DNA of 44,609 bases. Origin: Alcaligenaceae bacterium (GTDB taxonomy: Bacteria > Pseudomonadota > Gammaproteobacteria > Burkholderiales > Burkholderiaceae_B). Every line of letters starts with the position of its first letter. Position 1 is the stretch's first letter. Both the position numbers and the translations under genes were made by a program. Positions 1,263-44,424 of the stretch are shown piece after piece. Under the pieces are notes generated by a model that worked only from the letters and a program-made list of their open reading frames with translations, was not told the DNA's origin and did no database searches. The stretch covers positions 1 through 44,609 of the forward strand of contig CANCMG010000029.1 of NCBI GenBank assembly GCA_947378965.1. Direction: 5' to 3'.

Positions 1263-2447
1263 ATGAGCTTTAACCCTCAAGATGCTTACACGATTGCAGA
1301 TCTGCGTGCGGTTGCAAAAGATATTTTGCCCAAAGGCTTATTCGAATTTGTTGATCGTGGCACCGAAGATGAACTTGCGCTCAAGCGCAATCGCAAGGGT
1401 TTCGAAAGAATTTGCGTACGCCCTAAGGTGCTCGTCGATGTCTCTAAACGATCGATACAAACGACGATGGCTGGTCAAAGTACTTCAATGCCGTTGGCCG
1501 TTGCACCAACGGGCGCTGCGGGTCTTTTATCGTTTGACGGTGAAATCTCAATCGCACGCGCCGCGGCGAAGTTAGGTATACCGTTTACGCTCTCAACCGC
1601 GTCGATCACCTCAATGGAGCGCGTGGCGGCAGAAGCGGGTGGGAGACTCTGGTTTCAGTTGTATATGTGGCCTGATCGCGAGGTGTCGTATCAACTGATT
1701 GATCGAGTCAAAGCGGCTGGCTATGAAGCATTGCTGGTGACTGTTGATACCGCGGTTTCACCCAACCGAGAATACAACCGTCGCAATGGTTTCACCTTGC
1801 CGATGCAGATCAACAGTAAAAACATGTTTGATGTCGCTCGTCACCCAACCTGGTTTTTATCCGTGTTTTTAAAGTACTTGTTGCGTTCGGGTATCCCAGC
1901 GCTTGAAAACTATCCGGATCAGTACCGTCAAAAGTTGATGCAGCGTAAACCAGGTCAGCAGGTCAGTTTGCCTAAAAGTGACTCGCTCAATTGGGACGAC
2001 TTAAAAGAGTTGCGTAAGCGCTGGAAAGGTAGCCTGATGGTTAAAGGCGTTTTGCATCCTGATGATGCCCAACGTGCGCTTGAGTGTGGTGCCGACGCGA
2101 TTGTGGTCTCGAACCACGGTGGTCGAAATCTGGACATCGCGATTGCTCCGATCGATGCGCTTCCTGCGATCGTCGAGCGCGTCAATGGCCGTGTGGATGT
2201 CCTGTTGGATAGCGGCGTTCGGCGTGGCAGCGATATCTTCAAGGCGCTGGCACTCGGGGCGAAAGGTGTGTTTGCTGGCCGTGCGCCTCTTTGGGGGGTC
2301 ACAGCGGCCGGAGAAGAGGGCGCGTTTCGTGCGCTTGATATTTTGCGCGAAGAATTAGATCGCGTGATGGCTTTTTCGGGCTGCCCGTCGCTGAGCGACA
2401 TTGATCGTTCGCTGCTTTGGTTTGATCACTCGTCAGCGTCGGAGTAA
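1263..2447 (+). CDS. FMN-dependent alpha-hydroxy-acid oxidase/dehydrogenase
   Basis: A protein of about 394 aa of the lactate/mandelate/glycolate oxidoreductase family, which oxidises L-2-hydroxy acids to 2-oxo acids on an FMN-bearing TIM barrel. The signature SNHGGRNLD contains the catalytic His (287 counting from the upstream ATG at 1257). Asn replaces the more usual Gln after the Arg. The FMN-contact segment QLYMWPDRE (from about 134) and the core Lys (about 263) are present. The ATG at 1263 lies 6 nt after AAGGA and is preferred; the ATG at 1257 is in frame but too close to that site. Placed between two paralogous dioxygenases, it may process a hydroxy acid released by one of them (inference). 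Its last codons are copied in the repeat that follows. Confidence 0.93.
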   Translation: MSFNPQDAYTIADLRAVAKDILPKGLFEFVDRGTEDELALKRNRKGFERICVRPKVLVDVSKRSIQTTMAGQSTSMPLAVAPTGAAGLLSFDGEISIARAAAKLGIPFTLSTASITSMERVAAEAGGRLWFQLYMWPDREVSYQLIDRVKAAGYEALLVTVDTAVSPNREYNRRNGFTLPMQINSKNMFDVARHPTWFLSVFLKYLLRSGIPALENYPDQYRQKLMQRKPGQQVSLPKSDSLNWDDLKELRKRWKGSLMVKGVLHPDDAQRALECGADAIVVSNHGGRNLDIAIAPIDALPAIVERVNGRVDVLLDSGVRRGSDIFKALALGAKGVFAGRAPLWGVTAAGEEGAFRALDILREELDRVMAFSGCPSLSDIDRSLLWFDHSSASE

Positions 2448-2595
2448 GGCCGGCTGTTCGCTTTTTTAGAAAATAGGAAAAACCGGTATTTGGTTGGGAC
2501 TTTCTTGATCATCAACGTAATGCCGGCTGTTCGCTTTTTAGAAAAAAAGTCAAACCTGTATTGAGTTAGGTCTTTCGTCAACGTCGGAGTCACGG
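2431..2595. repeat. Degenerate 73-bp tandem duplication at a gene junction
   Basis: The block starting GCCGGCTGTTCGC occurs at 2449 and again at 2522, a 73-bp offset. Each copy is followed by TTAGAAAA-type sequence. The final codons and stop region of the oxidase (CGTCAGCGTCGGAGT, 2431-2445) recur as CGTCAACGTCGGAGT at 2576-2590, just before the next start codon. The GGAG in that last copy (2586-2589) is the apparent Shine-Dalgarno of the second dioxygenase. Confidence 0.8.
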
Positions 2596-3453
2596 ATGTC
2601 ATTAGCGTTTCAGCAAGAAGGAAAAACGTTTGTTGCGTCAGTCACTGGGCTTGATCTGCGTACGTCGATCGGACAGCAAGATGCCGAAGTGCTCGAACAG
2701 GCCTTGGCCAAGTACGGGTTATTGATCTTACGTAATCAGCAAATAGGTGATGATCAACAACAGGCGTTTATCGAGAAATTTGGTCCACCTGTTGTGACCA
2801 CGCTTAAAGAGCTTGCAACGGGACATCCTCATTTTTACGACATCGCGACAGTCGATTCAGACGGACAACCGATTCCTGCTGATAGCGTGCGAGGCATGTA
2901 CCTGCTAGGCAATTTGCTTTGGCATACCGATGGCTCTCAAAATCAGCCCCCCATACGGTTGACGGCGTTGCACGCACGCGTGTTGCCTCCTAACCCACCC
3001 AGAACAGAATATGCCGATATGTGTGCCGCCTGGGATGCCTTGCCGAAACAACGTCAAATCGAACTAGAAGGGTTGATGGTTGAGCACAGTATTTATTGGT
3101 CTCGTCAAAAGATGGGCCTAAATATGAGTGACTTTAGTGCAGAGACTTTAGCGACGCGTCCGGCGGTTGTTCATCCTTTGGTACGTCAACATCCGATTTC
3201 GGGACGAAAATCTTTATACCTGGCTTCGCACGCTTCACATGTGATCGACTGGCCTTTAGAAAAAGGCCGAGCCTTGATTGAGGAGCTCACCGCGCATGCC
3301 ACGCAGCCTGAGTTTGTCTATCACCTTGAGTGGGGCGCGAATGATCTAGCGATCTGGGATGACCGTTGGACCATGCATCGTTCGACGCCGTACACCGATT
3401 CATATCCAAGAGTGATGCGCTGGTGTGCTGTGCGAGAGCTGCATAACGTATAA
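2596..3453 (+). CDS. TauD/TfdA family Fe(II)/2-oxoglutarate dioxygenase (second copy)
   Basis: A 285-aa paralogue of the dioxygenase at 296-1168. Motifs line up along the whole length: H110-x-D112 in LLWHTDGSQ, the PPNPPRTEYADM segment and the distal H261 in TMHRSTPY. Candidate 2-oxoglutarate arginines are R272 and R275. The ATG is 6 nt after GGAG, and that ribosome binding site lies in a duplicated copy of the preceding gene's 3' end. Keeping two diverged copies suggests different substrates or steps rather than simple redundancy (inference). The adjacent Bug-1 receptor probably imports a related acid. Confidence 0.92.
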   Translation: MSLAFQQEGKTFVASVTGLDLRTSIGQQDAEVLEQALAKYGLLILRNQQIGDDQQQAFIEKFGPPVVTTLKELATGHPHFYDIATVDSDGQPIPADSVRGMYLLGNLLWHTDGSQNQPPIRLTALHARVLPPNPPRTEYADMCAAWDALPKQRQIELEGLMVEHSIYWSRQKMGLNMSDFSAETLATRPAVVHPLVRQHPISGRKSLYLASHASHVIDWPLEKGRALIEELTAHATQPEFVYHLEWGANDLAIWDDRWTMHRSTPYTDSYPRVMRWCAVRELHNV

Positions 3454-3550
3454 CGTTGGTATTGTTTGTTAGTGTGTGGTTAGAAAAAGTCATCACGCAA
3501 AACGCTGGTGTTGTTTTTATGGATAGAACGATGAATCAGAAAAAAAAGAC
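3452..3550. repeat. Degenerate ~49-bp duplication at the tauD-like/Bug-1 junction
   Basis: AACGTTGGTATTGTTTGTTA (3452) recurs as AACGCTGGTGTTGTTTTTA (3501), a 49-bp offset. The following stretches TTAGAAAAAGTC (about 3480) and AGAAAAAAAAGAC (about 3539) also correspond. The first copy begins at the stop codon of the second dioxygenase, and the second spans the Bug-1 start. The AGAAAAAAA-GTCAAACCTG sequence at about 2540 is also very similar to the Bug-1 5' end at about 3539. Confidence 0.45.
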
Positions 3551-4511
3551 AAACCTGCTTGGTCGCTGCTTGAGCACACTCGCGCTGACTGTTGGACTGA
3601 CGGTCGCCTGCAGTGCTCAGACTTTTCCGACTAAGCCAATCCGCTTGCTTGTGCCGTCACCCGGGGCGACTGAAGTCATCTGTCGCCAACTTGCCGACAA
3701 AATGCAAGTGTCGCTCGGTCAGTCTGTGATCGTCGAAACCAAGCCAGGCGCAGGTACCACCGTGGCGTCTAACTATGTCGCGAATGCTGCGCCAGATGGC
3801 TACACGCTCTTGTGCGTGATCTCGGCGTTTTTAACTGCGCCTTATTACTTCACTGAATCTCGCTATCAGCCCTTAAAGGATTTTGCGCCGGTCGCCTTAG
3901 TCGTTAAGGTGGCTCATGTTCTGTTAATCCGTGATGATTTGCCCATCAAGAGCATCAAAGAGTTAATTCAATACGCGCAAGCAAATCCTAATAAACTGAC
4001 GTTTGGTTCGTCAGGAGTCGGTACATCGAATTATCTGGGGGCAGCGTTGTTTCAGAATATGGCGAAGGTCAGAATGACTAACGTGCCATACAAGGGCGGG
4101 GCTCCTGCGCTGCAAGATTTAGTGGGTGGGCGAATCGACTTATTGTTCGATGTCCCGCAGGCTGGAGTCGCGTTTATTCAAAGCGGCCGACTGCGTGCGC
4201 TAGGGATTACAACAGATACGCGTTTGAAGGCATTTCCAGACTGGCCAACAATTGAAGAGGCTGGTGTCCCAGGTTATGCCTCGTTTCCTTGGGCTGGGGT
4301 GATTGCGCCGGCAAAAACACCGGACGCCGTTGTGAAGCGACTGAATCAATCAGTCAACGACGCTTTACAGGCGCCTGATTTAATCGAACGATTCACTGGC
4401 ATGGGCTTGAATATTGCGGGTGGTACCCCTGAAAGCTTCAGAGACTTTATGGAGTCAGAAAGCAAAAAATGGAATCCCATCATCGAGACTTTACAAAAAC
4501 AGGGGTTATAA
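3519..4511 (+). CDS. Bug/TctC-family solute-binding protein (Bug-1), atypical
   Basis: A periplasmic receptor of about 330 aa of the Bug (TctC-like) family, which binds carboxylates and related small acids between two lobes. An N-terminal signal peptide ends near ACSAQT. The family's AAPDGYTLL and NVPYKGG segments are clear. The reading frame opens at a TTG at 3456, but the ATGs at 3519 or 3531 give a normal signal peptide and are preferred. The first ligand loop is odd: the usual P-x-x-GG-x-x-D-x-x-AR is reduced to VPSPGATEVICR, so the Gly pair is shortened and Glu replaces Asp. It ends the plus-strand group, directly before a strong terminator. No TctA/TctB partner is nearby. Confidence 0.88.
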   Translation: MDRTMNQKKKTNLLGRCLSTLALTVGLTVACSAQTFPTKPIRLLVPSPGATEVICRQLADKMQVSLGQSVIVETKPGAGTTVASNYVANAAPDGYTLLCVISAFLTAPYYFTESRYQPLKDFAPVALVVKVAHVLLIRDDLPIKSIKELIQYAQANPNKLTFGSSGVGTSNYLGAALFQNMAKVRMTNVPYKGGAPALQDLVGGRIDLLFDVPQAGVAFIQSGRLRALGITTDTRLKAFPDWPTIEEAGVPGYASFPWAGVIAPAKTPDAVVKRLNQSVNDALQAPDLIERFTGMGLNIAGGTPESFRDFMESESKKWNPIIETLQKQGL

Positions 4512-4552
4512 AAAATGGGCTAATAGTCAGTTGACTCTTAGCCCATTTTTTG
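4510..4552 (+). terminator. Strong intrinsic terminator after Bug-1
   Basis: The stem AAAAAATGGGCTAA (from 4510) pairs with TTAGCCCATTTTTT (4539-4552). The loop region contains a second nested pair, AGTCA with TGACT, so the hairpin is long. The 3' T run and the 5' A run make it usable in both directions, and it overlaps the Bug-1 stop codon. Confidence 0.9.
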
Positions 4553-4638
4553 TTTACCAAGCGAGCCTGTGAGGCAGCTGCTTTAAATTGATCGATGGCG
4601 TCTTTCAAATGACGTTTTCGACGTTAAACGATCGTATC

Positions 4639-4788
4639 TTTAGGATCGCGTTGTCGAAGTACTCGAGCGCGTCTTCAAGTTGATCAACCGGTATTCAAGA
4701 CACGCTATGCGATTTTAGGATCGGGCTGTCGAAGTACTCGAGCGCGTCTTCAAGTTCATCAACCAGTCTTCAAGACACGCTATGCGAT
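4639..4788. repeat. 75-bp tandem duplication copying the 3' end of the FAH gene
   Basis: Two near-identical copies, 4639-4713 and 4714-4788, with matches such as TGTCGAAGTACTCGAGCGCG at a 75-bp offset. The right copy contains the stop codon (4780-4782, minus strand) and last codons of the FAH-family gene, so the left copy carries a duplicate stop codon (4705-4707). A few substitutions show it is not brand new. Confidence 0.88.
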
Positions 4789-5712
4789 GTAGGTTTCGAG
4801 TACGCCGATTTGAGCGACCTCGGCCCGTACAACATCTCCAGATTGCAGGTAAAAGGCCATCGGATCTGGACGACCGATGGCAACCCCTTCGGGTGACCCC
4901 ACCGTAATTAAATCGCCTCGATCTAACCCCAACCTTGACCAATGCGACACCAATGCTGGAAACGAAAAAATTAAATCGGTGCAGCTTGCTTCTTGGCGTA
5001 CTTCACCATTGACGGTTAGCTTGACTGTCAACTGAGATGGATCTGGGACCTCATCGGCAGTCAGAATCCATGGCCCGAGTGGCCCGAGCTCTGGATAATT
5101 TTTACCCAGCAGAATCGATTGATTTGCCATTTCTTTGCGCTGCATTTCGCGCGCAGATAAGTCGTTCAAAATGGTGTAACCAAAAATCGCTTTCAGACCA
5201 TCTTCTTCATTCACATTCGTGGCGGCCGAACCGATCACCGCGGTCGCCTCAACTTCATAATCAAACCATTGGCAGTCCTCGGGTCGACGCACGGTTGAGC
5301 GTGTCGCCACCATGCTGCTCGCGAGTTTGATGAAACCCATCGGAATCTCACTATGCAGTTTTGCACCCTGTTTGGTCCAGTACTCAAGTGTTTCAGCACG
5401 GTGTGCGGCGAAGTTTCGGCCGCCCGCGATGCAGTTACGTACGTTCAGAGGGATCATCCACGGCGTCGTCGCTTCAGCCATCCATAAATCTGAGCCTCCT
5501 TGACGAGCCGCCCATTCAATAATTTGATAACCCTCTTGCAAAGCACGCGCGCCCGCCGCCATAAAGGCATCCATCGTGACCGGAAACTGTGAATACTGCG
5601 CGTGCGCCTGGGCGGCCGCTTGTAAGTCAAGAACTTTAAGTGCGTCGCCGTGATTGACCGCAACGCCGAGTCGTTCAATGCCATTGGTACCGCGATAACG
5701 TCCGATTTTCAT
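4780..5712 (-). CDS. Fumarylacetoacetate hydrolase (FAH) family protein
   Basis: A 310-aa cytoplasmic enzyme of the FAH fold. The family includes fumarylpyruvate and acylpyruvate hydrolases, oxaloacetate decarboxylases and 2-hydroxyhepta-dienoate isomerases. The divalent-metal ligands are visible as E153-x-E155 (DYEVEATAVIG) and D184 (ILNDLSARE). The substrate-loop segments RNCIAGGRNFAAH (about 92-104) and VGSPEGVAIGRPDP (about 271-284) are also present. It is the last gene of the minus-strand series, after the secreted hydrolase. Family members cleave C-C bonds in beta-diketo acids, but the substrate here is unknown. Its 3' end is tandemly duplicated. Confidence 0.9.
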   Translation of the reverse strand: MKIGRYRGTNGIERLGVAVNHGDALKVLDLQAAAQAHAQYSQFPVTMDAFMAAGARALQEGYQIIEWAARQGGSDLWMAEATTPWMIPLNVRNCIAGGRNFAAHRAETLEYWTKQGAKLHSEIPMGFIKLASSMVATRSTVRRPEDCQWFDYEVEATAVIGSAATNVNEEDGLKAIFGYTILNDLSAREMQRKEMANQSILLGKNYPELGPLGPWILTADEVPDPSQLTVKLTVNGEVRQEASCTDLIFSFPALVSHWSRLGLDRGDLITVGSPEGVAIGRPDPMAFYLQSGDVVRAEVAQIGVLETYIA

Positions 5713-5803
5713 GATGTTTTAGCCTGTTCAATACCGATTCGTATCGATGTTAATTGAGTGAGTGGTTTTTTGCCTGGATCTTACCTTTGACCGCATGTCC
5801 TAA

Positions 5804-6997: not shown

Positions 6998-7021
6998 GTT
7001 GAGCCTTTTTGCTTTTAGTTG

Positions 7022-7231: not shown

Positions 7232-7250
7232 GGGTCAGCCTCTCAGAGTT

Positions 7251-8261: not shown

Positions 8262-8286
8262 GTAGTTGGCTCCAGGGTATCAATGA

Positions 8287-14375: not shown

Positions 14376-15284
14376 TTATTTTCCTTTTTTTAATGCAGAA
14401 GCTGACAAGTCTCGCGGATCAAGTATGTCACGAACGGAGTCGCCTACAAGGTTAAACGCTAAAACCGCTAACGTGAGACAAAGCCCCGGGATCAAGGCCA
14501 ACCAAGGAGCGTCAAGAATCGTGATGACCCCGTCGCGTATCAGATTGCCCCAACTTGGTTCAGGGGGTTGTATGCCAAGGCCTAAAAAACTCAAGGCTGC
14601 CTCTTCGCGAATTGCACCAGCGATGCTCAGTGTCGCCATCACAATCAGTGGGCCCACCGCATTCGGAAAAATATGTCTGAGTAAAATGTGAAACTGACGC
14701 CCACCGAAGGATCGACTTGCCGTCACATAATCGAGTTCGCGAATAATGAGCGTTGAGCTGCGCGCCAAGCGGATAAAGATTGGTACATGCGCGATACCGA
14801 TTGCAAGCACAAGCACACCCATGCTAGACCCAACCAGCGTGACAACCATTAACGCTAATAACAGTGACGGAAAGGAAAGCATAATATCGACAAAGCCCGA
14901 GACGACCGTGTCGATCCAGCCGCCGCGATAGCCTGCAAGAATACCCAGTGGCATACCAAGCAAAATCGAAACGAAGACGGATAAAATTCCGACGTACAAA
15001 GCAGGCCTCGTGCCATAGATCACGCGACTGAGTACGTCACGACCAAACTCATCCGTGCCAAACCAATGCGTCATTGAGGGCGGGGCAAATGCTTGCGTGA
15101 TGCTTTGCTCGGTGGGGTCGACCGCGATCCAAGGGGCGAGCAACGCGACCAAGACAATGAAGGCAATAATGATGATGCCAGCCAGAGCACCGCGATCTGA
15201 CACCAGCAGGCTTAACCGAAGCGACCAAGTATTGCGGCGGCTGACTGGAGCGTCGGTTTGCGCGTAAGAGATCGGCTCAGACAT
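14376..15284 (-). CDS. Dipeptide-type ABC transporter permease (DppC-type)
   Basis: About 302 aa from the ATG at 15284 (MSEPISYAQTD). A frame extension to a TTG at 15323 is an artefact of the upstream repeat. The N-terminal OppC region TM segment is at about 35-58, followed by GTDEFGRDVLSRVIYGTR and five further hydrophobic segments. The permease EAA-like loop is SRSFGGRQFHILLRHIFPNA. It forms the membrane channel with the DppB-type protein immediately upstream. The 5' end of this gene is duplicated (see repeat and short upstream frame). It is followed after 1 nt by the M81 gene. Confidence 0.92.
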   Translation of the reverse strand: MSEPISYAQTDAPVSRRNTWSLRLSLLVSDRGALAGIIIIAFIVLVALLAPWIAVDPTEQSITQAFAPPSMTHWFGTDEFGRDVLSRVIYGTRPALYVGILSVFVSILLGMPLGILAGYRGGWIDTVVSGFVDIMLSFPSLLLALMVVTLVGSSMGVLVLAIGIAHVPIFIRLARSSTLIIRELDYVTASRSFGGRQFHILLRHIFPNAVGPLIVMATLSIAGAIREEAALSFLGLGIQPPEPSWGNLIRDGVITILDAPWLALIPGLCLTLAVLAFNLVGDSVRDILDPRDLSASALKKGK

Positions 15285-15360
15285 TGAGTGATGCGTCGGT
15301 TTGAACGTTAGGGATCGGCTCAACCATAGCGTGCCGAGTTGGTTTGAAGCTTAGCACTTG
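15242..15360. repeat. 43-bp duplication of the DppC-type start region
   Basis: Read on the minus strand, the gene start ATG at 15284 and the next bases (M-S-E-P-I-S-Y-A-Q-T-D codons) are repeated exactly 43 bp upstream at 15327 (codons M-V-E-P-I-P-N-V-Q-T-D). A third, partial copy upstream preserves a TTCAAACC-AC-CATG-like segment at about 15328-15355. Because 43 is not a multiple of 3, the copies are in different frames. Confidence 0.8.
15277..15327 (-). other. Short upstream frame overlapping the DppC-type start
   Basis: The duplicated ATG at 15327 opens a 16-codon frame (MVEPIPNVQTDASLNV, then TGA). Its stop lies only a few bases past the real ATG at 15284, so termination and re-initiation could be coupled. 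No strong ribosome binding site precedes either ATG. It may be a fortuitous product of the duplication. Confidence 0.35.
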
Positions 15361-15362
15361 AC

Positions 15363-16304
15363 TCACGCATATTTGACTCGAGGATCAAGAAGGCCATAAC
15401 TGAGGTCAACGAGCAAGTTGACGAGCACAATGATTAAGGCAAAGACAATTAGACCCGATTGGATCAGGTTGTAGTCGCGTTGCGCGATCGCGCCGATCAA
15501 CAGTTTGCCAAGGCCCGGGCGGTTAAAAACAGTCTCGGTTAAGATCGCGCCACCAAGAATAGTCCCGGTGTATACACCCATGGCGGTGATGACGATCACC
15601 AAGACATTGCGCAGCGCATGCTTGAAAAATACTTCGTAGGGCGTTAAGCCTTTTGCAAACGCGGTGCGCACATAATCTTGGCTTAGTGCTTCAATCATTG
15701 TCGAGCGCGTAAGACGCGTGACATAGGCGGCTTGCACCAAGCCTAAACTTAAGCCAGGCAAGACCAGTTTTTGTAGGTATTCGCCAACTGAATCGCCGCG
15801 CATGCTGTGAATCACTGGAAACCAGCCGAGCCAAACAGAAAAAACGAGCAACAATAATACGCCTAGATAGAAAGAAGGAAATGAGAAGCCAAGTAATGCA
15901 AAGACACGGCCTGAGAAGTCGATCCAGCCGTTGCGTTTGACGGCGGTGATGACGCCGATCGGAATCCCCACCGCTGCGCCAACCACGAGCGCTGCAAGCG
16001 CAAGAGCTAAGGTGTCAGGAAATACGGACCAGATCTGCTCAGAGATCGATTTTCCGGTAATTAATGAATCGCCTAGATTGCCCTGCAATAAGCCCAGCAT
16101 AAAGTCGCTGTACTGCGTGAATAGGGGCTGGTCTAGTCCGGCTTTTTGGCGAAACGCGGCAATGGCTTCTGCTGAGGCTTGATCCCCTAAGACGACCAGA
16201 GCCGGATCGGCTGGCACGAGTCGCATGATAAAAAAAACGATCGTGGGCACCGAAAACAAGATGACGATTAGCGTGAAGAATCGTCTGAGCAAAAAAACTG
16301 TCAT
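15363..16304 (-). CDS. Dipeptide-type ABC transporter permease (DppB-type)
   Basis: A 313-aa inner-membrane permease. The start MTVFLLRRFFTLIVILFSV is the typical first transmembrane helix of DppB/OppB. It is followed by the conserved periplasmic segment RLVPADPALVVLGDQAS and GLDQPLFTQYSDFMLGLLQGNLGDS. The cytoplasmic coupling loop is RTAFAKGLTPYEVFFKHALRN (about 211-231) and the protein ends YGLLDPRVKYA. It lies 23 nt after the receptor gene and 78 nt before the DppC-type start, consistent with one operon. Confidence 0.94.
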   Translation of the reverse strand: MTVFLLRRFFTLIVILFSVPTIVFFIMRLVPADPALVVLGDQASAEAIAAFRQKAGLDQPLFTQYSDFMLGLLQGNLGDSLITGKSISEQIWSVFPDTLALALAALVVGAAVGIPIGVITAVKRNGWIDFSGRVFALLGFSFPSFYLGVLLLLVFSVWLGWFPVIHSMRGDSVGEYLQKLVLPGLSLGLVQAAYVTRLTRSTMIEALSQDYVRTAFAKGLTPYEVFFKHALRNVLVIVITAMGVYTGTILGGAILTETVFNRPGLGKLLIGAIAQRDYNLIQSGLIVFALIIVLVNLLVDLSYGLLDPRVKYA

Positions 16305-20739: not shown

Positions 20740-20829
20740 ATTCAGTCTGCCGTCGTCGTGAACAGAATGCTTGTCCAAGTGCTAAATTATGGCGAGGTCT
20801 TGGGTTGTCAAGCGCGTAAAGGATTAAGG

Positions 20830-20886
20830 CGTCGCCCCATACCTTAAGACATCGCCCTATACCTTAAGACATCGCCCCTTACATTA
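20830..20886. repeat. 20-bp tandem repeat, about 2.9 copies
   Basis: Units at 20830, 20850 and 20870 read approximately CATCGCCCTATACCTTAAGA, with the last one partial. They fill part of the 235-bp gap between the MFS and aldo/keto reductase genes. No start or stop codon of a neighbouring gene is obviously copied here. Confidence 0.75.
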
Positions 20887-20974
20887 GGTATAGGACTTAG
20901 TCTGTCAAACGCGTGAACCCTAAAGACCTGGCAATACACAATACAGTCGCTCACCATACTGCTAAGAGATCATC

Positions 20975-21922
20975 ATGCAAAAAATACAACTCGGCCGTTC
21001 AGATATCGCAGTACCCCCCGTGATTTTTGGTTGCAATATTTTTGGTTGGACAGTCGACAAGGCGCAGTCGTTTCGTCTGTTAGATGCGTTGGTAGAGTCG
21101 GGTTTGAATGCGCTGGATACTGCTGACGTCTACTCGTATTGGGTGCCTGGCAATAAAGGTGGTGAGTCTGAAACGATTATCGGAGAATGGTTAAAGGCCA
21201 GAGGCCGGCGCCATGAGGTACTGATTTTTTCGAAAGCTGGGATGGAAATGCCAGGGATAGGCAAAGGCTTATCTGCCCAATATCTGACGCGCGCGATCGA
21301 AGATTCGCTTAAGCGACTGCAGACGGATGTGATCGACTTATTTCAGTCGCATCGCGACGATGAGATTACGCCGCACGAAGAGACGCTTGCCGTCTATGAC
21401 AAACTGATAAAGGCCGGCAAGATTCGTGCGATTGGTGCCTCTAATTATTCGGTGACGCGTTTTAAAGAGGCCTTAGAGGTGAGCGCACGCACCGGTTTGC
21501 CGCGCTATGAAACGATGCAACCGCATTACAACTTGCTCGAGCGCGCAATTGAAGCTGATCTTTTGCCATTGTGTGCGAGTGAAGGCGTAAGCGTCATTCC
21601 TTATTACGCCTTAGCTTCTGGATTTTTATCAGGCAAGTATCGTACTGAGTCTGACTTAAACAAAAGCCCACGCGGCGCGCGCGGCGCCGGCAAGTATCTT
21701 GACGCAAGGGGCTTGAAAGTATTGGCAGCACTTGACGTCGTTGCTGAGCGTTATCGCACTACGCCTGCGCAGGTCGCGATTGCGTGGTTTAAGGGGCGTC
21801 CAGGGCTCGCTGCGCCGATTGCGAGTGCAACAACGTTTGAACAATTGACTGAGTTGGTGCAGGCAGCGGCGCTAGTACTAGACACCGAGGCGATTGCTCA
21901 GTTAGATACGGCCAGCGCTTGA
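20975..21922 (+). CDS. Aldo/keto reductase
   Basis: A 315-aa cytosolic NADPH-dependent TIM-barrel oxidoreductase. The catalytic tetrad is visible as D48 (LDTADVY), Y53, K87 (IFSKAG) and H126 (FQSHRDDE). The cofactor-binding segments IRAIGASNYS (about 154-163) and YYALASGFLSGKY match the AKR subgroup that includes YajO/Tas-like and L-glyceraldehyde reductases. The ATG is preceded by AAGAGATCATC, a moderate ribosome binding site. It appears to be a stand-alone gene. Its last codons are copied in degenerate repeats downstream. Confidence 0.93.
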   Translation: MQKIQLGRSDIAVPPVIFGCNIFGWTVDKAQSFRLLDALVESGLNALDTADVYSYWVPGNKGGESETIIGEWLKARGRRHEVLIFSKAGMEMPGIGKGLSAQYLTRAIEDSLKRLQTDVIDLFQSHRDDEITPHEETLAVYDKLIKAGKIRAIGASNYSVTRFKEALEVSARTGLPRYETMQPHYNLLERAIEADLLPLCASEGVSVIPYYALASGFLSGKYRTESDLNKSPRGARGAGKYLDARGLKVLAALDVVAERYRTTPAQVAIAWFKGRPGLAAPIASATTFEQLTELVQAAALVLDTEAIAQLDTASA

Positions 21923-22035
21923 GTGAACTGACCAGCTTAGACGCAGCAAGCGTTTGAGTGCATTAGTTTTTAGATGCAGCAAACGCTCGACTGAACCGAC
22001 CTGTTCAGATGCAGCAAGCGCTCAGGTGAGTGACA
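21902..22035. repeat. Degenerate ~35-bp repeats copying the AKR 3' end
   Basis: Four diverged units start at about 21902, 21937, 21970 and 22005. The first is the end of the AKR gene (TTAGATACGGCCAGCGCTTGA) and the others read TTAGACGCAGCAAGCG, TTAGATGCAGCAAACG and TCAGATGCAGCAAGCG. Spacing varies between 33 and 35 bp. The repeats reach almost to the end of Bug-4 on the other strand. Confidence 0.75.
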
Positions 22036-22058: not shown

Positions 22059-23045
22059 TTACTCGTCGCGAACATTTGCGTCTTTAATAATCTTGCCCCA
22101 GTGAGCCAGATCTTTTTTAACGAGCTCATCCATCTGCCCAGGAGTCATTGGCATCATGTCATAGCCATCGACTTGAATCCCTTTAATCACTGCTGGGTCT
22201 TTCATCACTTCGTTAAACGCTGGTACGAGTTTAGCCATGACTTCGGCAGGCAGGCCTTTGGGGCCGACGATGCTAAACCAGATCGCGGCATCAAAGCCTT
22301 TGTAGCCCGACTCATCAAGAGTTGGCACGTTAGGCAACATCACACTACGTTTAAGCGATGTGACCGCCAAGGGCTTGAGCGTACCTGCTTCGAGTTGTGT
22401 CGCTGCTGAACCTAGTGATGAAAACAAAAAGGGCACGTGTCCGCCTAAGACCTCAACTACCGCCGGATTACCGCCCTTGTACGGCACGTGCGTGATATTT
22501 AAGTTTTCAAGCTTGTTCAATTGCTCGCCCGCCAAGTGGCCAACACCACCAATCCCTGAGGTGCCGTAGCTCCATTTTGACGGATCTTTTTTGGCTAACG
22601 CAATCAAACCTTTAATATCTTTAGCAGCCGAATCTGGGCGCACGACGATCACCGTGCCGCCGCCCGCAATCATGGCGATATTGGTAAAGTCTTTTAGCGG
22701 GTCGTACGCAAGCTTGCGCATGTTTGGCAAGATCACCATGGGGCCCGAGTCGGTGATGTGCAAGGTGTAGCCGTCAGGGTCAGCCTTGGCGGTCAGGTCA
22801 AGTGCGATCGAGGCGCCCGCACCGGGGCGGTATTCCATAATAAAAGGTTGGCCGATGATTTTTGATGTGCGTTCGGCGATGGGGCGAATCAGCTTATCGG
22901 CGGCGCCGCCCGCTGAGTAACCGATGATCATTTTGATCGGCTTGTTAGGGTATTGCGCGTGCGCGCCAGACGACAGCGCCAACAGACCAAATGCCGCAAG
23001 CGTGGGTGCAATGATTTTTTTCAAACCGTTCGATATTTTTTTCAT
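22059..23045 (-). CDS. Bug/TctC-family solute-binding protein (Bug-4)
   Basis: About 328 aa from the ATG at 23045 (MKKISNGLKKIIAP), which has GAGG about 7 nt upstream. The frame extends to 23075. The signal peptide ends near GAHAQ. Family marks are MIIGYSAGGAADKLIR (first ligand loop, with Gly-Tyr instead of Pro-Phe), DPDGYTLHITDSG and HVPYKGGNPAVVEVLGG. It is a stand-alone gene between the AKR repeats and the VOC protein gene, so no linked enzyme hints at a ligand. Confidence 0.92.
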   Translation of the reverse strand: MKKISNGLKKIIAPTLAAFGLLALSSGAHAQYPNKPIKMIIGYSAGGAADKLIRPIAERTSKIIGQPFIMEYRPGAGASIALDLTAKADPDGYTLHITDSGPMVILPNMRKLAYDPLKDFTNIAMIAGGGTVIVVRPDSAAKDIKGLIALAKKDPSKWSYGTSGIGGVGHLAGEQLNKLENLNITHVPYKGGNPAVVEVLGGHVPFLFSSLGSAATQLEAGTLKPLAVTSLKRSVMLPNVPTLDESGYKGFDAAIWFSIVGPKGLPAEVMAKLVPAFNEVMKDPAVIKGIQVDGYDMMPMTPGQMDELVKKDLAHWGKIIKDANVRDE

Positions 23046-23214
23046 GGGTATCCTCAGGGAACTTCGTTTTTTCACGCAGGATACTACCCTGCAAGTTGAG
23101 TCATGTTGCCAACATGGTGTTGCGAAAAACAGTGAACCGTATCAGTGTAAAAGCTTTAGCTTTGAACAGGTACTTGTCTGACGCATTGACTACACGCCAG
23201 ATTCGAGGCTCTTA

Positions 23215-23703: not shown

Positions 23704-23918
23704 CACGCAGCCTCAGAGCCTAAAAAACTAGTGGCACCGACACCGAATGCAGCCCCAAGATCTAGAAAACTGAGTGACAGAGACAAAGAATGCAGCCCTA
23801 AGATCTAGAAAACTGAGTGACAGAGACAAAGAATGCAGCCCCAAGATCTAGAAAACTGAGTGACAGAGACAAAGAATGCAACCCCAGGATCTAGAGAAAT
23901 TAGTGACATGGAAGATGC
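23704..23918. repeat. 43-bp tandem array made of the DUF3820 start region
   Basis: Units start at 23704 (degenerate), 23747, 23790, 23833 and 23876. The three central units are nearly identical, each beginning ATGCAGCCC-AAGATCTAG. The last unit is the true 5' end of the DUF3820 gene (ATGCAACCCCAGGATCTAG). Each internal copy therefore carries an ATG followed by eight codons (MQPQDLEN) and a stop, and is preceded by the same GACAAAGA leader. No spacer sequence separates the units. Confidence 0.92.
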
Positions 23919-31994: not shown

Positions 31995-32279
31995 ATGTTC
32001 AACAAACGAATCATTTCATGCGCTTTAGCGCTCGCTTTGGTCGCAGTGTCTGGTGTGAGTGCTGCGCAAACAGTCGACGCAGCAACGCAAGCCAAATTAA
32101 CAGAAGTTGAGACGCGTTTTAAAGCAGCCGACAAAAATGCGGATGGCAAGTTAACACTGCAAGAGGCTAAAGATGGCATGCCTCGTATTGCTAATTCATT
32201 TAGTCACATCGATACCGAGAAAAAGGGCTATGTCACGCTCGATCAAATCAAAGAGGTCATGCTTAAAAACGGCGGGTAA
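31995..32279 (+). CDS. Small secreted EF-hand protein
   Basis: A 94-aa protein with a signal peptide (about 24 residues, ending GVSAAQ) and two EF-hand-like loops. Loop 1 (46-57, DKNADGKLTLQE) is canonical with D-x-N-x-D-G and a terminal Glu. Loop 2 (73-84, DTEKKGYVTLDQ) has Lys at position 5 and Gln at position 12, so it should bind calcium poorly. It is a predicted periplasmic calcium-binding protein of unknown role. The ATG follows AAGGA with an 8-nt spacer. It is convergent with the crotonase gene at 32287, only 7 nt apart. Confidence 0.88.
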   Translation: MFNKRIISCALALALVAVSGVSAAQTVDAATQAKLTEVETRFKAADKNADGKLTLQEAKDGMPRIANSFSHIDTEKKGYVTLDQIKEVMLKNGG

Positions 32280-38345: not shown

Positions 38346-38445
38346 CAAGATTTCAGGTAATCAAGTCTTCAGAGCAGCCAACTCCGAGGTAAGTACGATC
38401 TCAAATAAACAACGAGATTTCAGCTAAACAAGATTTCAGATAAGT
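38346..38445. repeat. Degenerate ~17-bp repeats before the MDR gene
   Basis: About six diverged units such as CAAGATTTCAGGTAAT, CAAGTCTTCAGAGCAGC, CGATCTCAAATAAACAA, CGAGATTTCAGCTAAA and CAAGATTTCAGATAAGT fill most of the 160-bp gap after the crotonase gene. Confidence 0.55.
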
Positions 38446-38465
38446 CACGACCTAAGGAATAGAAC

Positions 38466-39446: not shown

Positions 39447-39561
39447 ACAACCTCGACAGCTTAGTTTGCTGTTGCGATTCGCGGTCGCATGTAGCTGGCA
39501 CCAGGCTAGCTTGGCAGGCAAGTTGCAGGCCTGCTTTGTGCTGCTCTGACCCGAGAGTCAT

Positions 39562-39580
39562 TAGGCACCTTGAGTGCCTA
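39562..39580. terminator. Hairpin between convergent MDR and Bug-9 genes
   Basis: TAGGCAC CTTGA GTGCCTA gives a perfect 7-bp stem in the 158-bp convergent gap. There is no strong T run on either side, so termination is plausible but not certain. A palindrome GCAGGCCTGC lies about 30 bp to the left. Confidence 0.4.
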
Positions 39581-39604
39581 TCCTCAGCTGTTGCGCGACG
39601 AGGT

Positions 39605-40597
39605 TTACTGCTTAGTTGAAATCCCGGCTTTCTTGATCACATCACCCCAGCGCGCGTAGTCTTTGAGGTAAAACGCCTCAAACTCTGCTGGGGTGCCTGG
39701 CATGACGATTGCGCCACCGTCTTCAAGTTTTTTCTGTAACTCAGGCACGACCAAGGTTTTGTTCATGGCGGCATTGACTTTGTCGATGATGGCTTGAGGG
39801 GTTCCTGCAGGCGCCATCAAACCGTACCAGACCGAAGCGACCATGCTGGGGTAGCCAAGTTCGGTAAACGTGGGCAGATCTGAGAGTTGGCTGTTGCGCT
39901 TGACGCTGACGGCCGCGATTGGGCGAAGCTTGCCGCTTTTGATATGTGGCAATAACGCCGGGATCCCGTCAAACATCATATCGACTTGCCCGCTGGCAAC
40001 ATCGACCACAGCAGGGGCCGAGCCTTTGTAGGGCACGTGCACCATGTTGACCTTGGTTTCTGTTTTAAACAGCTCGCCAGACAGATGTGGCGCGCTGCCC
40101 GTGCCGGCTGAAGCGAAGCTGAGTTGCTTGCCTTGCGCCAAAGCGATCAACTCTTTAACAGATTGAACCGGCAATTGCGCATTGACTGCCAAAATGATCG
40201 GAAACTCGGCAATCGCCCCGATCGAGACCAGATCTTTAAAGGGGGCATAGGGGAGATTTTCGTAGAAATACGGGCCAATGCCGTGCGTTGAAATGCCCGA
40301 TTGCAGCAACGTATAGCCATCGGGCGCGGCGCGCGCCACGAGCGCACTGGCGATGGTGCCATTTGCCCCAGCTTTGTTTTCGACCAAAATCGTGGTGCCT
40401 AATTCTTTACCAAAGCGCTCAGACAATGTGCGCGCCACAAAGTCAGAGGCACCGCCGGGTGGCACGGTGATGATCAGCCGAACTGGCTTATCAGGGTAGT
40501 TGGCAGTAGAGGCGGTTGATTGCGAAAAACTGGCCGCACTGAGTAAGCAAGAAAAAAGACCAACTAGGGGGGGCAACCAGTATGTTGAGCGAAGCAT
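39605..40597 (-). CDS. Bug/TctC-family solute-binding protein (Bug-9)
   Basis: A 330-aa periplasmic receptor with a signal peptide of about 25 residues (LVGLFSCLLSAASFSQS). Ligand loop 1 is LIITVPPGGASDFVAR, followed by AAPDGYTLLQSG and HVPYKGSAPAVVDVASG. The ATG follows AAGG with a 6-nt spacer. It is divergent from the NMT1-like receptor at 40859 and convergent with the MDR gene, so it forms its own transcription unit. No linked enzyme suggests a ligand. Confidence 0.93.
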   Translation of the reverse strand: MLRSTYWLPPLVGLFSCLLSAASFSQSTASTANYPDKPVRLIITVPPGGASDFVARTLSERFGKELGTTILVENKAGANGTIASALVARAAPDGYTLLQSGISTHGIGPYFYENLPYAPFKDLVSIGAIAEFPIILAVNAQLPVQSVKELIALAQGKQLSFASAGTGSAPHLSGELFKTETKVNMVHVPYKGSAPAVVDVASGQVDMMFDGIPALLPHIKSGKLRPIAAVSVKRNSQLSDLPTFTELGYPSMVASVWYGLMAPAGTPQAIIDKVNAAMNKTLVVPELQKKLEDGGAIVMPGTPAEFEAFYLKDYARWGDVIKKAGISTKQ

Positions 40598-40649
40598 CGA
40601 GAACCTTACCTGTAGTGTAAAAAAACGTATGGGTAATTATGCAACAGAT

Positions 40650-40670
40650 TGGCACGCAATAATTGTGCCA
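40650..40670. promoter_or_regulatory. Inverted repeat between divergent receptor genes
   Basis: TGGCAC (40650-40655) and GTGCCA (40665-40670) are separated by 9 bp. The arrangement contains a T-N11-A core as seen in LysR-type operators. A second inverted repeat, ATCCTGA/TCAGGAT (40770-40789), lies 100 bp further on. The 261-bp gap holds no gene. Confidence 0.3.
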
Positions 40671-40858
40671 GACCTGACCCTCGTTGCCTGAGCGTCCGTT
40701 CCTCAGGTCGCGTATCGTTGCACTCTTGTCAACTGTAAAGCGGGGCTTGCATCGGCACTTTAGCGAGTCATCCTGACAGAGATCAGGATACGGCCCAAGA
40801 CAGGCAGCGAGGTCGGCCTGTTCTAGAATAAGAAAAAACACACCAACTAGGACTTAAC

Positions 40859-41812
40859 TTGAACATCAGACTTGCTGAAAACTTTCGCGCCGTGTTTTAC
40901 GCGCCTTTTTACGCGACCCATGCTTTAGGGTTGTTTGCCGAGCAGGGTGTATCGATCACCTTGTTGGATTCTCCCTCGCCTGGGGCAGGGATTGCCGAGT
41001 TGGCCAAGGGCAATATTGATGTCATGTGGGGCGGGCCGTTGCGGGTCATTAAAGAGCGCGATCAGTTTGAGCGCACCGAGGGCTCGCTTGTGGCCTTTTG
41101 TGAGGTGGCGGCAAAAGATCCATTTTTTTTGCTGCGGCGCAGGCAGGGCGAACTCCTTGCATCGCAATCAACCGACCCAGCTTCGAACCGGAGCAAGCAG
41201 TGCGAACCGTTTGCGCTTAAAGATTTAGTGAGTCTACGCTTCGCCTCAGTCTCTGAGGTGCCGACTCCGTGGCTGTGTCTGCAGCAAGATTTGCGCGAGG
41301 CGGGTGTCGACCCCAATAAGCTCAAGCGTGTCGCAGACCGCAGCATGCAAGATAATCTCGACGCACTGCTAGGTGGCGAGCTCGATGTGATTCAGGTCTT
41401 TGAGCCCTATGTTTCGCTTGGCTTAGCACACGATGACCTTGAGGTCGTGCACGCGGCCAGTCAGCGCGGTTATACCGCTTACACAACTTTTATTTCAACT
41501 TTTGAGGGCATGCAGCGAAACCACGCTGGTTTTGAGGCCATGATTTTGGCCATTGAGAAGTTTAGGCCCTGGCTAGCCGCGCACGGGCCTGCTGAGCTAG
41601 CTCGTGTCGTCAAATCGTTTTATCCGCATGTCAGTCTCGAGACCTTGACCGCATGCCTCACACGCTATCACGCGGCCGAGCTCTGGACTTGCCGACGTGC
41701 CATCTCACGCCAGGGCTTTGCGCGCCTGGCAGCCAGCATGCTCGATTCGGGCTATATCAAACAGGCCGCACGCTACGAAGATTGTGTGGCGAAAAGTGCC
41801 TATGAAGACTGA
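40859..41812 (+). CDS. ABC transporter substrate-binding protein, NMT1/THI5-like
   Basis: A 317-aa protein starting at TTG, 8 nt after AGGA. The family's opening appears directly: RAVFYAPFYATHALGLFAEQGVSITLLDSPSPGAGIAELAKGNIDVMWGG-type sequence over about residues 9-58. This corresponds to NMT1/SsuA-like receptors for pyrimidines, sulfonates or nitrate-like anions. No obvious signal peptide is present; the protein begins almost at the mature fold. It may therefore be cytoplasmic, a sensor, or an enzyme-like THI5 relative. No ABC permease or ATPase is linked. Ligand unknown. Confidence 0.85.
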   Translation: MNIRLAENFRAVFYAPFYATHALGLFAEQGVSITLLDSPSPGAGIAELAKGNIDVMWGGPLRVIKERDQFERTEGSLVAFCEVAAKDPFFLLRRRQGELLASQSTDPASNRSKQCEPFALKDLVSLRFASVSEVPTPWLCLQQDLREAGVDPNKLKRVADRSMQDNLDALLGGELDVIQVFEPYVSLGLAHDDLEVVHAASQRGYTAYTTFISTFEGMQRNHAGFEAMILAIEKFRPWLAAHGPAELARVVKSFYPHVSLETLTACLTRYHAAELWTCRRAISRQGFARLAASMLDSGYIKQAARYEDCVAKSAYED

Positions 41813-41884
41813 AGCGTCAGCACAAATACTGAACACAACGACTGAACACTGTCGACAGCTAGAGTGAGCGGCTGAGGGTATTGG

Positions 41885-43522
41885 TCAGTGGGCAATGATC
41901 GCGTCAAGCGGGGTGAGTGGCGCAAAACTGTCGGCACTTGCCATCGGCCAGGCAATTTGAAACACGGGGCGTTGCAGGTCTCCGGCCAGCAGCGAGCCCG
42001 GTGTGATACCGGGATACAAGCTCGATAGCAGGCTGATGTGATTGTCGGCGGTACGACGGGCGATATGTGTGGTGGTGAGCTCTTTCGGGTGTTGCAGGCC
42101 TGAGGCTTGCAATAACTCGGCCAAGGCGTGCAGCGTATTTTGGTGAAAATGCGCCACGCGTGGCGCTTTGTCTAAAGGCACTAACGCCCGCTGGCGCTCG
42201 GGGTCTTGCGTGGCGACACCCGTTGGACAGCGCCCAGTGTGGCACTGTTGCGCCTGAATGCAACCGATCGCAAACATGAACGCCCTTGCACTGTTACACC
42301 AGTCAGCGCCCAGGGCAAAGGTGCGTGCCATGTCAAAGGCTGAGACGATTTTGCCTGAGGCCCCAATCTTGATACGGTCGCGTAAATCCAAGCCAACCAA
42401 GGTGTTGTGCACCAGGCGAATCGCCTCGCGCAGTGGCGTGCCAACGTGATCCACAAACTCGATGGGGGCAGCACCCGTGCCTCCCTCTGAGCCATCGACC
42501 ACAATAAAGTCTGGCGTGATTCCCGTCTTGACCATCGCTTTCGCAATGGCGAACCACTCCCAGGCGTGACCAATACACAGCTTGAAGCCAACGGGTTTAC
42601 CGCCTGACAGTGTGCGAAGGCGCTGCACGAAATGCAAGAGGCCAACAGGGCTATCAAACTCAGAGTGCGCCGCTGGCGAATTGCAGTCTTCTCCAATGTT
42701 GACACCTCGGGCCGCCGCGATTTCAGGCGTGACTTTGCTACCGGGCAAAATCCCGCCGTGCCCAGGTTTGGCACCTTGTGAAAGCTTGATTTCTATCATT
42801 TTCACTTGAGGCAACAAGGCATTGGCAACAAAGTGCGTTTCTGAAAAATGACCCTGTTCGTCGCGGCAGCCAAAGTAACCAGAGCCGATGTTCCAAATCA
42901 GATCTCCGCCTGGCTGGCGATGGTAACTGCTGATGCCACCTTCGCCCGTGTCATGCGCAAAATGCCCAAGTTTGGCGCCCTCGTTTAAGGCCAGGACGGC
43001 ATTTGCGCTTAAGGCGCCAAAGCTCATCGCCGAAATATTGAGCACTGACAGCGACACGGGTTGGGTGCAGGCCGGGCCTCCTACACTGAGGCGAAAATCT
43101 GTGTCAGCGATCTTTGACGGGGCAAGAGAGTGATTGATCCACTCATACTGTTGGTCATAGACATCAAGCTGGGTGCCGAACGGGCGTTTATCGATCTCTT
43201 GCTTAGCGCGCTGGTAGACCAGCGAGCGACTCGCTCTTGAGAAGGGAGTCTCTTCGGTGTCGTTCTCAAAAAAATACTGACGAATGGCTGGACGCAAATC
43301 CTCAAAGAGATAACGCAGGTGCCCAATGATCGGATAATTACGCAAAATCGCATGATGCGTTTGAGCCAAGTCGTGGATGCCGAGTGCACAGAATCCCCAG
43401 GCGCTGACGGCTACGAGCCACCAAAAGATGGCACCGTCGTCTTGCAGCGCAAAATAGGGCCCAAGCCCTGCAAAGGCGAGCGCGAACCACAAAGCGAGAT
43501 ATCGAAATAAAAACAATGCCAT
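41885..43522 (-). CDS. FMN-binding glutamate synthase family protein, membrane-anchored
   Basis: About 545 aa from the ATG at 43522, 6 nt after GGAG. The frame extends to a TTG at 43579. Two N-terminal hydrophobic segments (about 4-42) anchor it in the membrane. The remainder is a GltB-like FMN TIM barrel with GHGGILPGSKVTPEIA, VDGSEGGTGAAP and a 3Fe-4S-type motif C421-x5-C427-x4-C432 (CIQAQQCHTGRCPTG). The amidotransferase domain of true glutamate synthase is missing, so it does not make glutamate from glutamine by itself. Function of this widespread family is not established. It stands alone. Confidence 0.92.
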   Translation of the reverse strand: MALFLFRYLALWFALAFAGLGPYFALQDDGAIFWWLVAVSAWGFCALGIHDLAQTHHAILRNYPIIGHLRYLFEDLRPAIRQYFFENDTEETPFSRASRSLVYQRAKQEIDKRPFGTQLDVYDQQYEWINHSLAPSKIADTDFRLSVGGPACTQPVSLSVLNISAMSFGALSANAVLALNEGAKLGHFAHDTGEGGISSYHRQPGGDLIWNIGSGYFGCRDEQGHFSETHFVANALLPQVKMIEIKLSQGAKPGHGGILPGSKVTPEIAAARGVNIGEDCNSPAAHSEFDSPVGLLHFVQRLRTLSGGKPVGFKLCIGHAWEWFAIAKAMVKTGITPDFIVVDGSEGGTGAAPIEFVDHVGTPLREAIRLVHNTLVGLDLRDRIKIGASGKIVSAFDMARTFALGADWCNSARAFMFAIGCIQAQQCHTGRCPTGVATQDPERQRALVPLDKAPRVAHFHQNTLHALAELLQASGLQHPKELTTTHIARRTADNHISLLSSLYPGITPGSLLAGDLQRPVFQIAWPMASADSFAPLTPLDAIIAH

Positions 43523-43689
43523 CGTTGGCTCCGGTTCAGCGTGCAACAAACGCACGCCTGTTAGCGATTCTGTCTGCAAATCTTAACGCGCTTGACATTG
43601 CGGGCACGCACTCAATCGTGGTTTTGGGCGGACTATACGTCTTTGGGCGGGCCGCACCTCTTTGAAATGTGAGGTTACGTCTCGAGCCG

Positions 43690-43710
43690 TATAATTTTCT
43701 GTCTAGGAGA
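43690..43710 (+). promoter_or_regulatory. -10 box and ribosome binding site of the GNAT gene
   Basis: A perfect TATAAT at 43690-43695 and AGGAGA at 43705-43710 precede the ATG at 43715. A start about 7 bp after the -10 box would leave a leader of only about 13 nt. No good -35 box is seen at 17 bp. Confidence 0.5.
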
Positions 43711-43714
43711 AAGT

Positions 43715-44242
43715 ATGACCCTTCCCGATCATAGATCTGAAATTGTTACCGATCAAAGTGCCCAGCCAAAAAAATCTGAGACGCGAGCCGAGCCGCAGCC
43801 AGAGTCTTGGCGTCTGCAAATAGGGGATTGGCCGACTTTGCAGGCAAAGGCGGCGCCGATTCGGCTCGAAGTGTTTGTGCACGAGCAGCACGTTCCCCTT
43901 GAAGAAGAGATCGACGCGTTGGATGCCGAATGTATACATGCTGTGGTGTTCGACACCCAAGGCTGTGCGTTGGCTACGGGTCGTCTGTTGCCCGATGGTC
44001 ACATTGGCCGGATGGCTGTGCTCAAAGCCGTGCGCGGGCGAGGGTTAGGGAGTGCCGTGCTGAGCGCTTTGATGCAACAGGCTCGACAAAAAGGCTTTGC
44101 CGAGGTGGTGTTGTCTGCACAGACACACGCCCAAGCGTTTTATGCACGCCATGGCTTTGTACCTGAGGGCGCTGAGTACCTTGACGCAAATATCCCTCAC
44201 GTCTTGATGCGCAAGGCGTTGTCGGGCTGCAGTGCTCAGTAG
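43715..44242 (+). CDS. GNAT family N-acetyltransferase (ElaA-like)
   Basis: A 175-aa acetyl-CoA-dependent acetyltransferase. A Pro/Glu-rich leader of about 30 residues precedes the domain. IRLEVFVHEQHVPLEEEIDALD (about 49-70) is typical of ElaA-like GNATs, and the acetyl-CoA loop is MAVLKAVRGRGLGSAVLSALM (about 100-120). The C-terminal AFYARHGFVPEGAEYLDANIPHVLM is the usual final strand region. The acceptor substrate is unknown. Its stop region is duplicated downstream and merges into an 18-bp repeat array. Confidence 0.93.
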   Translation: MTLPDHRSEIVTDQSAQPKKSETRAEPQPESWRLQIGDWPTLQAKAAPIRLEVFVHEQHVPLEEEIDALDAECIHAVVFDTQGCALATGRLLPDGHIGRMAVLKAVRGRGLGSAVLSALMQQARQKGFAEVVLSAQTHAQAFYARHGFVPEGAEYLDANIPHVLMRKALSGCSAQ

Positions 44243-44424
44243 AGAGGGACATCGTTGGAAAGCAGCAAAGCTCTGTAGAGGGGGACATCGTTGGAGAGTG
44301 GCAGAGCGCCAAACAACGGCAGAGCACTAAACAACGACAAAGCGCCAAACAACGACAGAGCGCCAAACACCGACAAAGCACCAAACAACGGCAGAGCGCT
44401 AAACAACGACAAAGCGTCATACGG
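44236..44424. repeat. Duplicated GNAT stop region running into an 18-bp array
   Basis: TAGAG-GGGACATCGTTGGA occurs at 44240 (the GNAT stop codon) and again at 44276, a 36-bp offset. It is followed by six units of 18 bp (44302-44409, consensus CAGAGCGCCAAACAACGA) plus a partial seventh. 36 is twice 18, suggesting one origin. Long open frames across this array on both strands are repeat artefacts. Confidence 0.85.

Follow-up and report, generated by a model that had tools for sequence, protein, structure and literature searches.

Within a 44,609-nucleotide stretch of DNA from an Alcaligenaceae bacterium (assembly GCA_947378965.1, contig CANCMG010000029.1; hereafter the window), several genes lie beside tandem copies of their own boundaries, each copy containing, or derived from, the start or stop codon of the adjacent gene. 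This raises the question of whether a process recognizes gene edges and copies them, whether the copies are retained as spare signals, or whether they are the visible survivors of duplications that occur without regard to gene boundaries. The data presented below make it very likely that the repeats are independent short tandem duplications that arise genome-wide, at a rate raised in this lineage, and are filtered by selection, with no element aimed at gene edges.

The six repeat loci listed by the first-pass annotation of the window, at 2431, 4639, 15242, 21902, 23704 and 44236, are real. Their best off-diagonal self-alignment scores (38, 65, 36, 29, 120 and 79, respectively) exceed the top scores from 60 dinucleotide shuffles of each locus (12, 11, 11, 13, 15 and 14), such that every locus outscored 60/60 shuffles. 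The alignment shifts of 72, 75, 43, 68 (two units of ~34), 43 and 36/18 bp agree with the annotated periods. The copied boundaries are also present, comprising the stop of an FMN-dehydrogenase gene with the start of a TauD gene, and the edges of genes encoding an FAA hydrolase (stop), a NikC-like permease (start), an aldo-keto reductase (stop), a PF12843 protein (start) and a GNAT protein (stop). The copies are arranged head to tail in units longer than ~10 bp, as in minisatellites or variable number tandem repeats (VNTRs), and at several loci are 62–93% identical to each other. The annotation's view of recurrent local tandem duplication of varied age therefore holds. Two further arrays, at 20824–20886 and 38411–38443, were not on its list and lie away from gene edges.

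Repeat density in the genome and its relatives

The source genome (G000) is a 4.5-Mb draft in 189 contigs, from which a 765-kb sample, consisting of the window and 36 further stretches, was analysed. Comparisons drew on 32 genomes of the genus, of which G000, G004 and 19 others were sampled as stretches, some shorter than 10 kb. Eighteen congeners were pooled, G009 (24 kb, G+C 0.42) being excluded; there was no second genome of the same species among the genomes searched. Genes were called with a simple script that gives exact stop and inexact start positions. Arrays were counted with Tandem Repeats Finder (TRF) at periods of at least 15, and a more sensitive gap scan was applied to gaps of 0–400 bp flanked by called genes on both sides (in G000, 460 such gaps, without the 44236 array because it adjoins a tRNA). 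As the window was picked because repeats had been seen there, the main counts were repeated without it.

TRF identified 47 intergenic arrays in 118.4 kb of intergenic DNA from G000 (39.7 per 100 kb), compared with 11 in 104.9 kb from the 18 pooled congeners (10.5 per 100 kb; P = 1.5e-5). With the window removed the count was 41 in 112.3 kb (P = 7e-5). Five genomes from other families of the order contained 4.7–21.9 intergenic arrays per 100 kb. In the gap scan hits were obtained in 49/460 gaps of G000, 13/241 of G004, 12/481 of the 18 congeners and 3/207 of the order-level genomes, against 1, 1, 0 and 0 hits, respectively, on shuffled sequences; without the window 41/422 gaps in G000 were positive (P = 3e-6 against the congeners). 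Arrays within genes are also enriched, with 27 in 647 kb of G000 versus 12 in 730 kb of the congeners (P = 0.006), and none of these 27 lies in the window. The rate is raised ~4-fold between genes and 2.5-fold inside genes in this lineage, and its elevation in genes as well as gaps points to mutation and away from an intergenic function. Consistent with the earlier observation that no mobile element is seen, 73 of 74 arrays had no match elsewhere in the sample (E ≤ 1e-3), while a single array did.

Reading frame and selection

Among genic arrays, 21/24 have a period that is a multiple of three (14/14 at a score of at least 80), compared with 16/47 intergenic arrays, the proportion that chance predicts (Fisher P = 1.7e-5). 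The values without the window are 21/24 and 14/41; mixed genic/intergenic arrays, 1/3 of which have such a period, were kept apart. Multiples of three in genes and any period between them fit random duplication filtered by selection. The occurrence of both classes of array supports the view that one process strikes genes and gaps alike, the genic survivors being mostly in frame.

Contact with gene edges

The first-pass annotation envisaged a process that works outwards from gene edges. Contact with edges was compared with a null in which units touching intergenic DNA are placed at random (95% ranges in brackets). Some edge was touched by 20 of the 49 gap-scan repeats in G000 against a null of 16.7 (10–23.5), the other 29 touching none, and by 14/41 repeats against 12.6 (8–18.5) when the window was removed. 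One of the 49, at 3423–3516, is doubtful as the downstream start is probably miscalled, and the 2431 array, which covers a stop as well as a start, was scored as start-only. Stops were contacted by 16/49 repeats (null 9.0 (4–14)), or 12/41 without the window (6.7 (3–11)), and starts by 8/49 (9.1 (4–15)), or 5/41 (7.0 (3–12)). The corresponding values in G004 were 8/13 for any edge (4.7 (2–8)) and 7/13 for stops (2.5 (0–5)), and in the 18 congeners 3/12 (2.3 (0–5)) and 2/12 (1.1 (0–3)). In co-directional gaps stop-only contacts outnumbered start-only contacts by 7 to 2 in G000 and by 5 to 0 in G004. By gap type, repeats in G000 occupy 10/69 convergent, 18/161 and 13/161 co-directional and 8/69 divergent gaps.

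The 50 TRF arrays that are not wholly genic gave 13 edge, 11 stop and 4 start contacts, rising to 19, 17 and 5 when the arrays were widened by 10 bp. For these arrays the placement of single units predicts 9.9 edge, 5.1 (1.5–10) stop and 5.4 (2–9) start contacts, while the placement of whole arrays predicts 22.9, 12.2 and 13.1 (8.5–19). The 47 mostly intergenic arrays made 10 edge, 8 stop and 2 start contacts against null values of 12.8, 5.9 and 7.3 (3–12).

By these data edges taken together are not favoured, and the targeting of gene edges is not supported. The lack of enrichment at gene ends was the outcome that the first-pass annotation had itself named as telling against its proposal; in the gap scan of 765 kb edges as a class are not enriched, although stops lie above one null. 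Together with the arrays inside genes, this leaves little of the idea of an edge-driven process beyond the stop excess, which survives weakly and is dependent on the choice of null. Contact is less frequent at starts than at stops, and this asymmetry is most simply read as the more frequent purging of duplications that extend into a start and so disturb the leader. The window is not typical of the sample, as 8/38 of its gaps contain repeats compared with 41/422 in the remaining sample, and 6/8 of its repeats contact an edge versus 14/41 elsewhere.

Individual loci and their counterparts in relatives

The arrays of the window are listed in Table 1. Relatives include L002, a bin of an uncultured beta proteobacterium whose FAA hydrolase shares 93% amino-acid identity with that of the window, and G004, in which the aldo-keto reductase is 92% identical and the DNA ~80–87% identical over the aligned parts of window positions 19–43 kb. 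Relatives show a single-copy, shorter or array-free state at five of the six listed loci.

Table 1. Tandem arrays in the window
Position	Strand	Repeat	Relation to genes
2416–2626	+	Three copies of a 72–73-bp unit	Spans FMN-dehydrogenase stop (2445–2447) and TauD start (2596)
4639–4788	−	Two copies of a 75-bp unit	Includes stop of FAA-hydrolase gene (4780–5712, minus strand)
15242–15371	−	43-bp unit; 2.3 copies by TRF (15252–15348), up to three by gap scan
20824–20886		3.2 copies of a 20-bp unit	Lies entirely between genes
21902–22035	+	Degenerate ~34/68-bp copies	Aldo-keto reductase 3′ end and stop
23720–23908	+	4.4 copies of a 43-bp unit	Holds ATG and initial codons of PF12843 gene
38411–38443		2.1 copies of a 16-bp unit	No gene contact; gap 160 bp here versus 10 bp in G004
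44217–44427	+	Two 36-bp copies, then 6.4 copies of an 18-bp unit	36-bp copies at GNAT stop

The array at 2431 provides an example of a duplicated junction. In L002 the unit is present once and the dehydrogenase stop and TauD start are 3 bp apart, compared with 148 bp in the window, a difference of 145 bp or 2.0 units. The dehydrogenase stop is kept in the first copy and the TauD start in the last, while the two upstream copies of the start have CTG at the position aligned to the ATG of the gene. At 4639 the array is absent from L002. The 15242 unit holds the start of the NikC-like gene, as called by the script, and extends to the stop codon of the NikB-like gene upstream; no ortholog of this junction was found in the genus, the best congener match scoring 57 bits. 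At 21902 G004 lacks a TRF array, and its sequence past the gene end is similar in length and poorly alignable.

The 23720 array is common to G004, where it has 2.0 copies and is 85–86 bp shorter, equivalent to 2.0 units. The ATG of the PF12843 gene (23876) lies inside the last unit, and the three upstream copies of the start (23747–23875) open very short frames (MQPQDLEN-stop, MQP-stop and MQPQDLEN-stop). Lying ahead of the true ATG in an array common to G004, these might be leader frames.

At 44236 the spacer is 193 bp in the window and 67 bp in G004 and G043, a difference of 126 bp, or 7 × 18. All 17 congeners listed with both flanks, gene and tRNA, on one contig have a shorter spacing than the window, the value for G010, G018 and G019 being taken only from the list of flank matches; with this outgroup support the array is read as a gain. 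The spacer is 118 bp in G007, where it is unlike the array, and 20 bp in G006. The differences in length from relatives at 2431, 23720 and 44236 are all near whole units, and the copy number at these loci differs between related genomes, as is typical of minisatellites and VNTRs.

The arrays at 20824 and 38411 are both absent from G004. An imperfect 18-bp inverted repeat (78% complementary) at 20847–20903 overlaps the former. In the wider sample an orthologous place was found in the sampled stretches of relatives for 10 of 90 repeats. Six of the ten are longer here with no array in the relative, two are shared (23720, and L109 14231 at equal length) and two are equal in length without an array in the relative (21902 and the doubtful hit at 3423). 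Elsewhere the window contains three genes for TctC-type tripartite tricarboxylate receptors (3456–4511, 22059–23075 and 39605–40597) and a gene for a small EF-hand protein (31995–32279).

Gap length

With a minimum difference of 25 bp, 17/46 orthologous gaps are longer in this genome and 6 are shorter (P = 0.035), and repeats occur in 7/17 longer gaps compared with 2/29 others (P = 0.008). Twelve of the 17 longer gaps fall in the window, where 12/22 orthologous gaps are longer by this measure than in the relative, five of them with a repeat, and 3 are shorter. Outside the window the median difference is 0; 5/24 gaps are longer and 3 are shorter, and repeats are found in 2/5 of the longer gaps versus 0/19 of the others. 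The mean over all 46 gaps is not larger here (134 versus 143 bp). Thus arrays go with longer gaps, but it is only in the window that gaps have clearly grown. The suggestion in the first-pass annotation that intergenic regions are being extended stands for window gaps that contain arrays, and is not borne out for gaps in general.

Proposed origin of the repeats

In the proposed model short tandem duplications, with periods in the observed range of ~15–95 bp, would arise during replication or repair at sites throughout the genome, and those that break a reading frame would be removed by selection. A duplication over a stop would leave the upstream gene whole, with the first copy retaining the stop, and one over a start would leave the downstream gene whole, with the last copy retaining the start. 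Because edge-spanning duplications leave genes whole they would survive and look like copied gene edges. Less securely, the first duplication may need little prior homology, occurring when a displaced flap is ligated or the template is switched, with later copies gained or lost through slippage between units and then decaying.

The evidence bearing on homology comes from 14 two-copy arrays whose match is 90% or higher; in 13 of them the length beyond two units is less than 3 bp. On this evidence most of these arrays were not seeded by pre-existing direct repeats. Flap ligation in gap filling and template switching remain as candidate routes. Ku-dependent end joining of staggered breaks is rejected, as a Ku gene is missing from 32/32 genus genomes; among 14 control genomes a match was obtained only in Bacillus subtilis. 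The loss of a repeat stabilizer was likewise rejected, since G000 and G004 both score above the cut-offs for RecJ, MutS, RecG, PolA and XseA. None of the 32 genus genomes matched the ExoI C-terminal family PF08411 (among the 14 controls only E. coli did), and a family unmatched in all of them cannot explain a rate difference within the genus. As a separate observation, the MutS match is split into in-frame pieces near model position 370 in G000 (G000:C7:58731-61451), G004, G007, G018, G019, G024, G041 and G043, and is unbroken in many congeners, which suggests a lineage-specific insert at this position.

A stronger version of the model can be formulated, in which this lineage has a genome-wide, largely homology-independent duplication mutator that is biased to gene 3′ ends, adds intergenic DNA and loosens tight junctions, as in the change from a 3-bp to a 148-bp spacer. 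This extension is unlikely.

Several observations weigh against the view that random duplication at a raised rate, filtered by selection, accounts for the repeats. The density in G004 (10 intergenic arrays, 23.6 per 100 kb) is not significantly different from that in G000 (P = 0.17) or from that in the other congeners (P = 0.09). The stop-side excess is not predicted by uniform placement, and needs either selection on the start side or a bias towards gene 3′ ends. The low homology was deduced from 14 arrays, in which decay of the ends could hide a few bases. None of Ku, RecJ, MutS, RecG, PolA, XseA and ExoI offered an explanation for the raised rate. Among the 24 orthologous gaps outside the window there is no general growth, and 10/17 expanded gaps have no array; the strongest faint signals in these ten were reached by 1, 4, 7 and 9 of 100 shuffles. 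Among six same-length gaps one signal (L109), located beside a TRF array shared with G004, was reached by 0/100 shuffles.

Alternative explanations

A process aimed at gene 3′ ends, such as transcription/replication conflict at terminator hairpins or R-loops, would account for stop contact above the null in G000, with or without the window, and in G004, and for the 12 stop-only versus 2 start-only contacts in the co-directional gaps of the two genomes combined. Such a process is nevertheless distinctly unlikely, as it does not readily explain total edge contact at the null level, the majority of repeats that touch no edge or the arrays inside genes; convergent gaps are not clearly favoured, and in the 18 congeners stop contact lies within the null range. 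The proposal in the first-pass annotation that the copies are kept by selection as spare signals, here taken to include starts, terminators or leader frames, draws on copied start and stop codons that persist at some loci (15319–15333 and 4700–4716) and on the repeated ATGs of the 23720 array, which open short frames before the PF12843 gene in an array kept in two species. It fits poorly with the loss of ATG from the TauD start copies and with 43-bp units that place copied starts out of frame. Repeats without edge contact and the raised number of genic arrays are similarly difficult to reconcile with spare signals, making this explanation highly improbable.

The abundance of intergenic arrays might indicate a dispersed or mobile repeat family of the MIRU-like, REP/BIME or MITE type. 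The units vary in length and sequence, and no family of homologous copies emerged from the 765-kb sample. In whole-genome searches the 2431 array matched itself alone; the 15242 and 44236 arrays were searched genome-wide only within longer queries. The probability of a dispersed family is therefore negligible. Finally, the fragmentation of the draft into 189 contigs invites the suspicion of an assembly or strain-mixture artefact. This is unlikely for the repeats, because copies have diverged and the 23720 array occurs in a relative at a different copy number, and in addition flanks align to relatives, two arrays are common to G004 and genic periods keep the frame. As a general explanation an artefact has a probability close to nil. 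Independent short duplications filtered by selection thus remain the favoured origin of the arrays, and copies of gene edges require no edge-directed machinery. The window provides a readable case of intergenic growth, in which a junction-spanning duplication leaves both genes intact and then decays to spacer. The raised rate is the interesting residue of this analysis, and the lineage would lend itself to measuring how fast short duplications arise, with close relatives for comparison.

Comparison with known systems

Among the titles and opening parts of abstracts listed, from a collection with few subscription journals, none dealt with gene-edge tandem duplication in bacteria. The MIRU elements of mycobacteria are tandem intergenic units that overlap the ends of flanking genes, and in this respect resemble the repeats described here; they constitute one homologous dispersed family, however, while the units of the window are not dispersed in the sample. 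The TAACTGA direct repeats of Beggiatoaceae and cyanobacteria (PMC4679880) are also abundant, intergenic and in some cases positioned over stop codons, but consist of a single fixed heptamer throughout the genome, in contrast to the locus-specific units of this genome. The confirmed Salmonella duplications reported in PMC3411829 differ from the low-homology arrays described here in having long microhomology at their junctions (deduced cut-off 11 bp), although the filter used in that work selected for microhomology.

Bacterial 'microdiversity' segments (PMC2884548) are short, variable and either intergenic or intragenic without a break in frame. Both systems comprise short variable segments, but only 12/640 E. 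coli microdiversity loci were minisatellites, palindromic units being scored separately, whereas in this lineage the variable gaps visibly contain tandem duplications. The closest likeness is to bacterial minisatellites and VNTRs, with which the arrays share head-to-tail units of ~15–95 bp, locus specificity, copy numbers that vary between relatives and, within genes, a mostly conserved frame. They differ in being denser per intergenic kb than in the 18 congeners, in the degeneracy of many arrays and in the position of several across stop or start codons. Short tandem duplications and minisatellites are thus already known as a kind, and what is new is their density in this lineage and the example that spans a gene junction.

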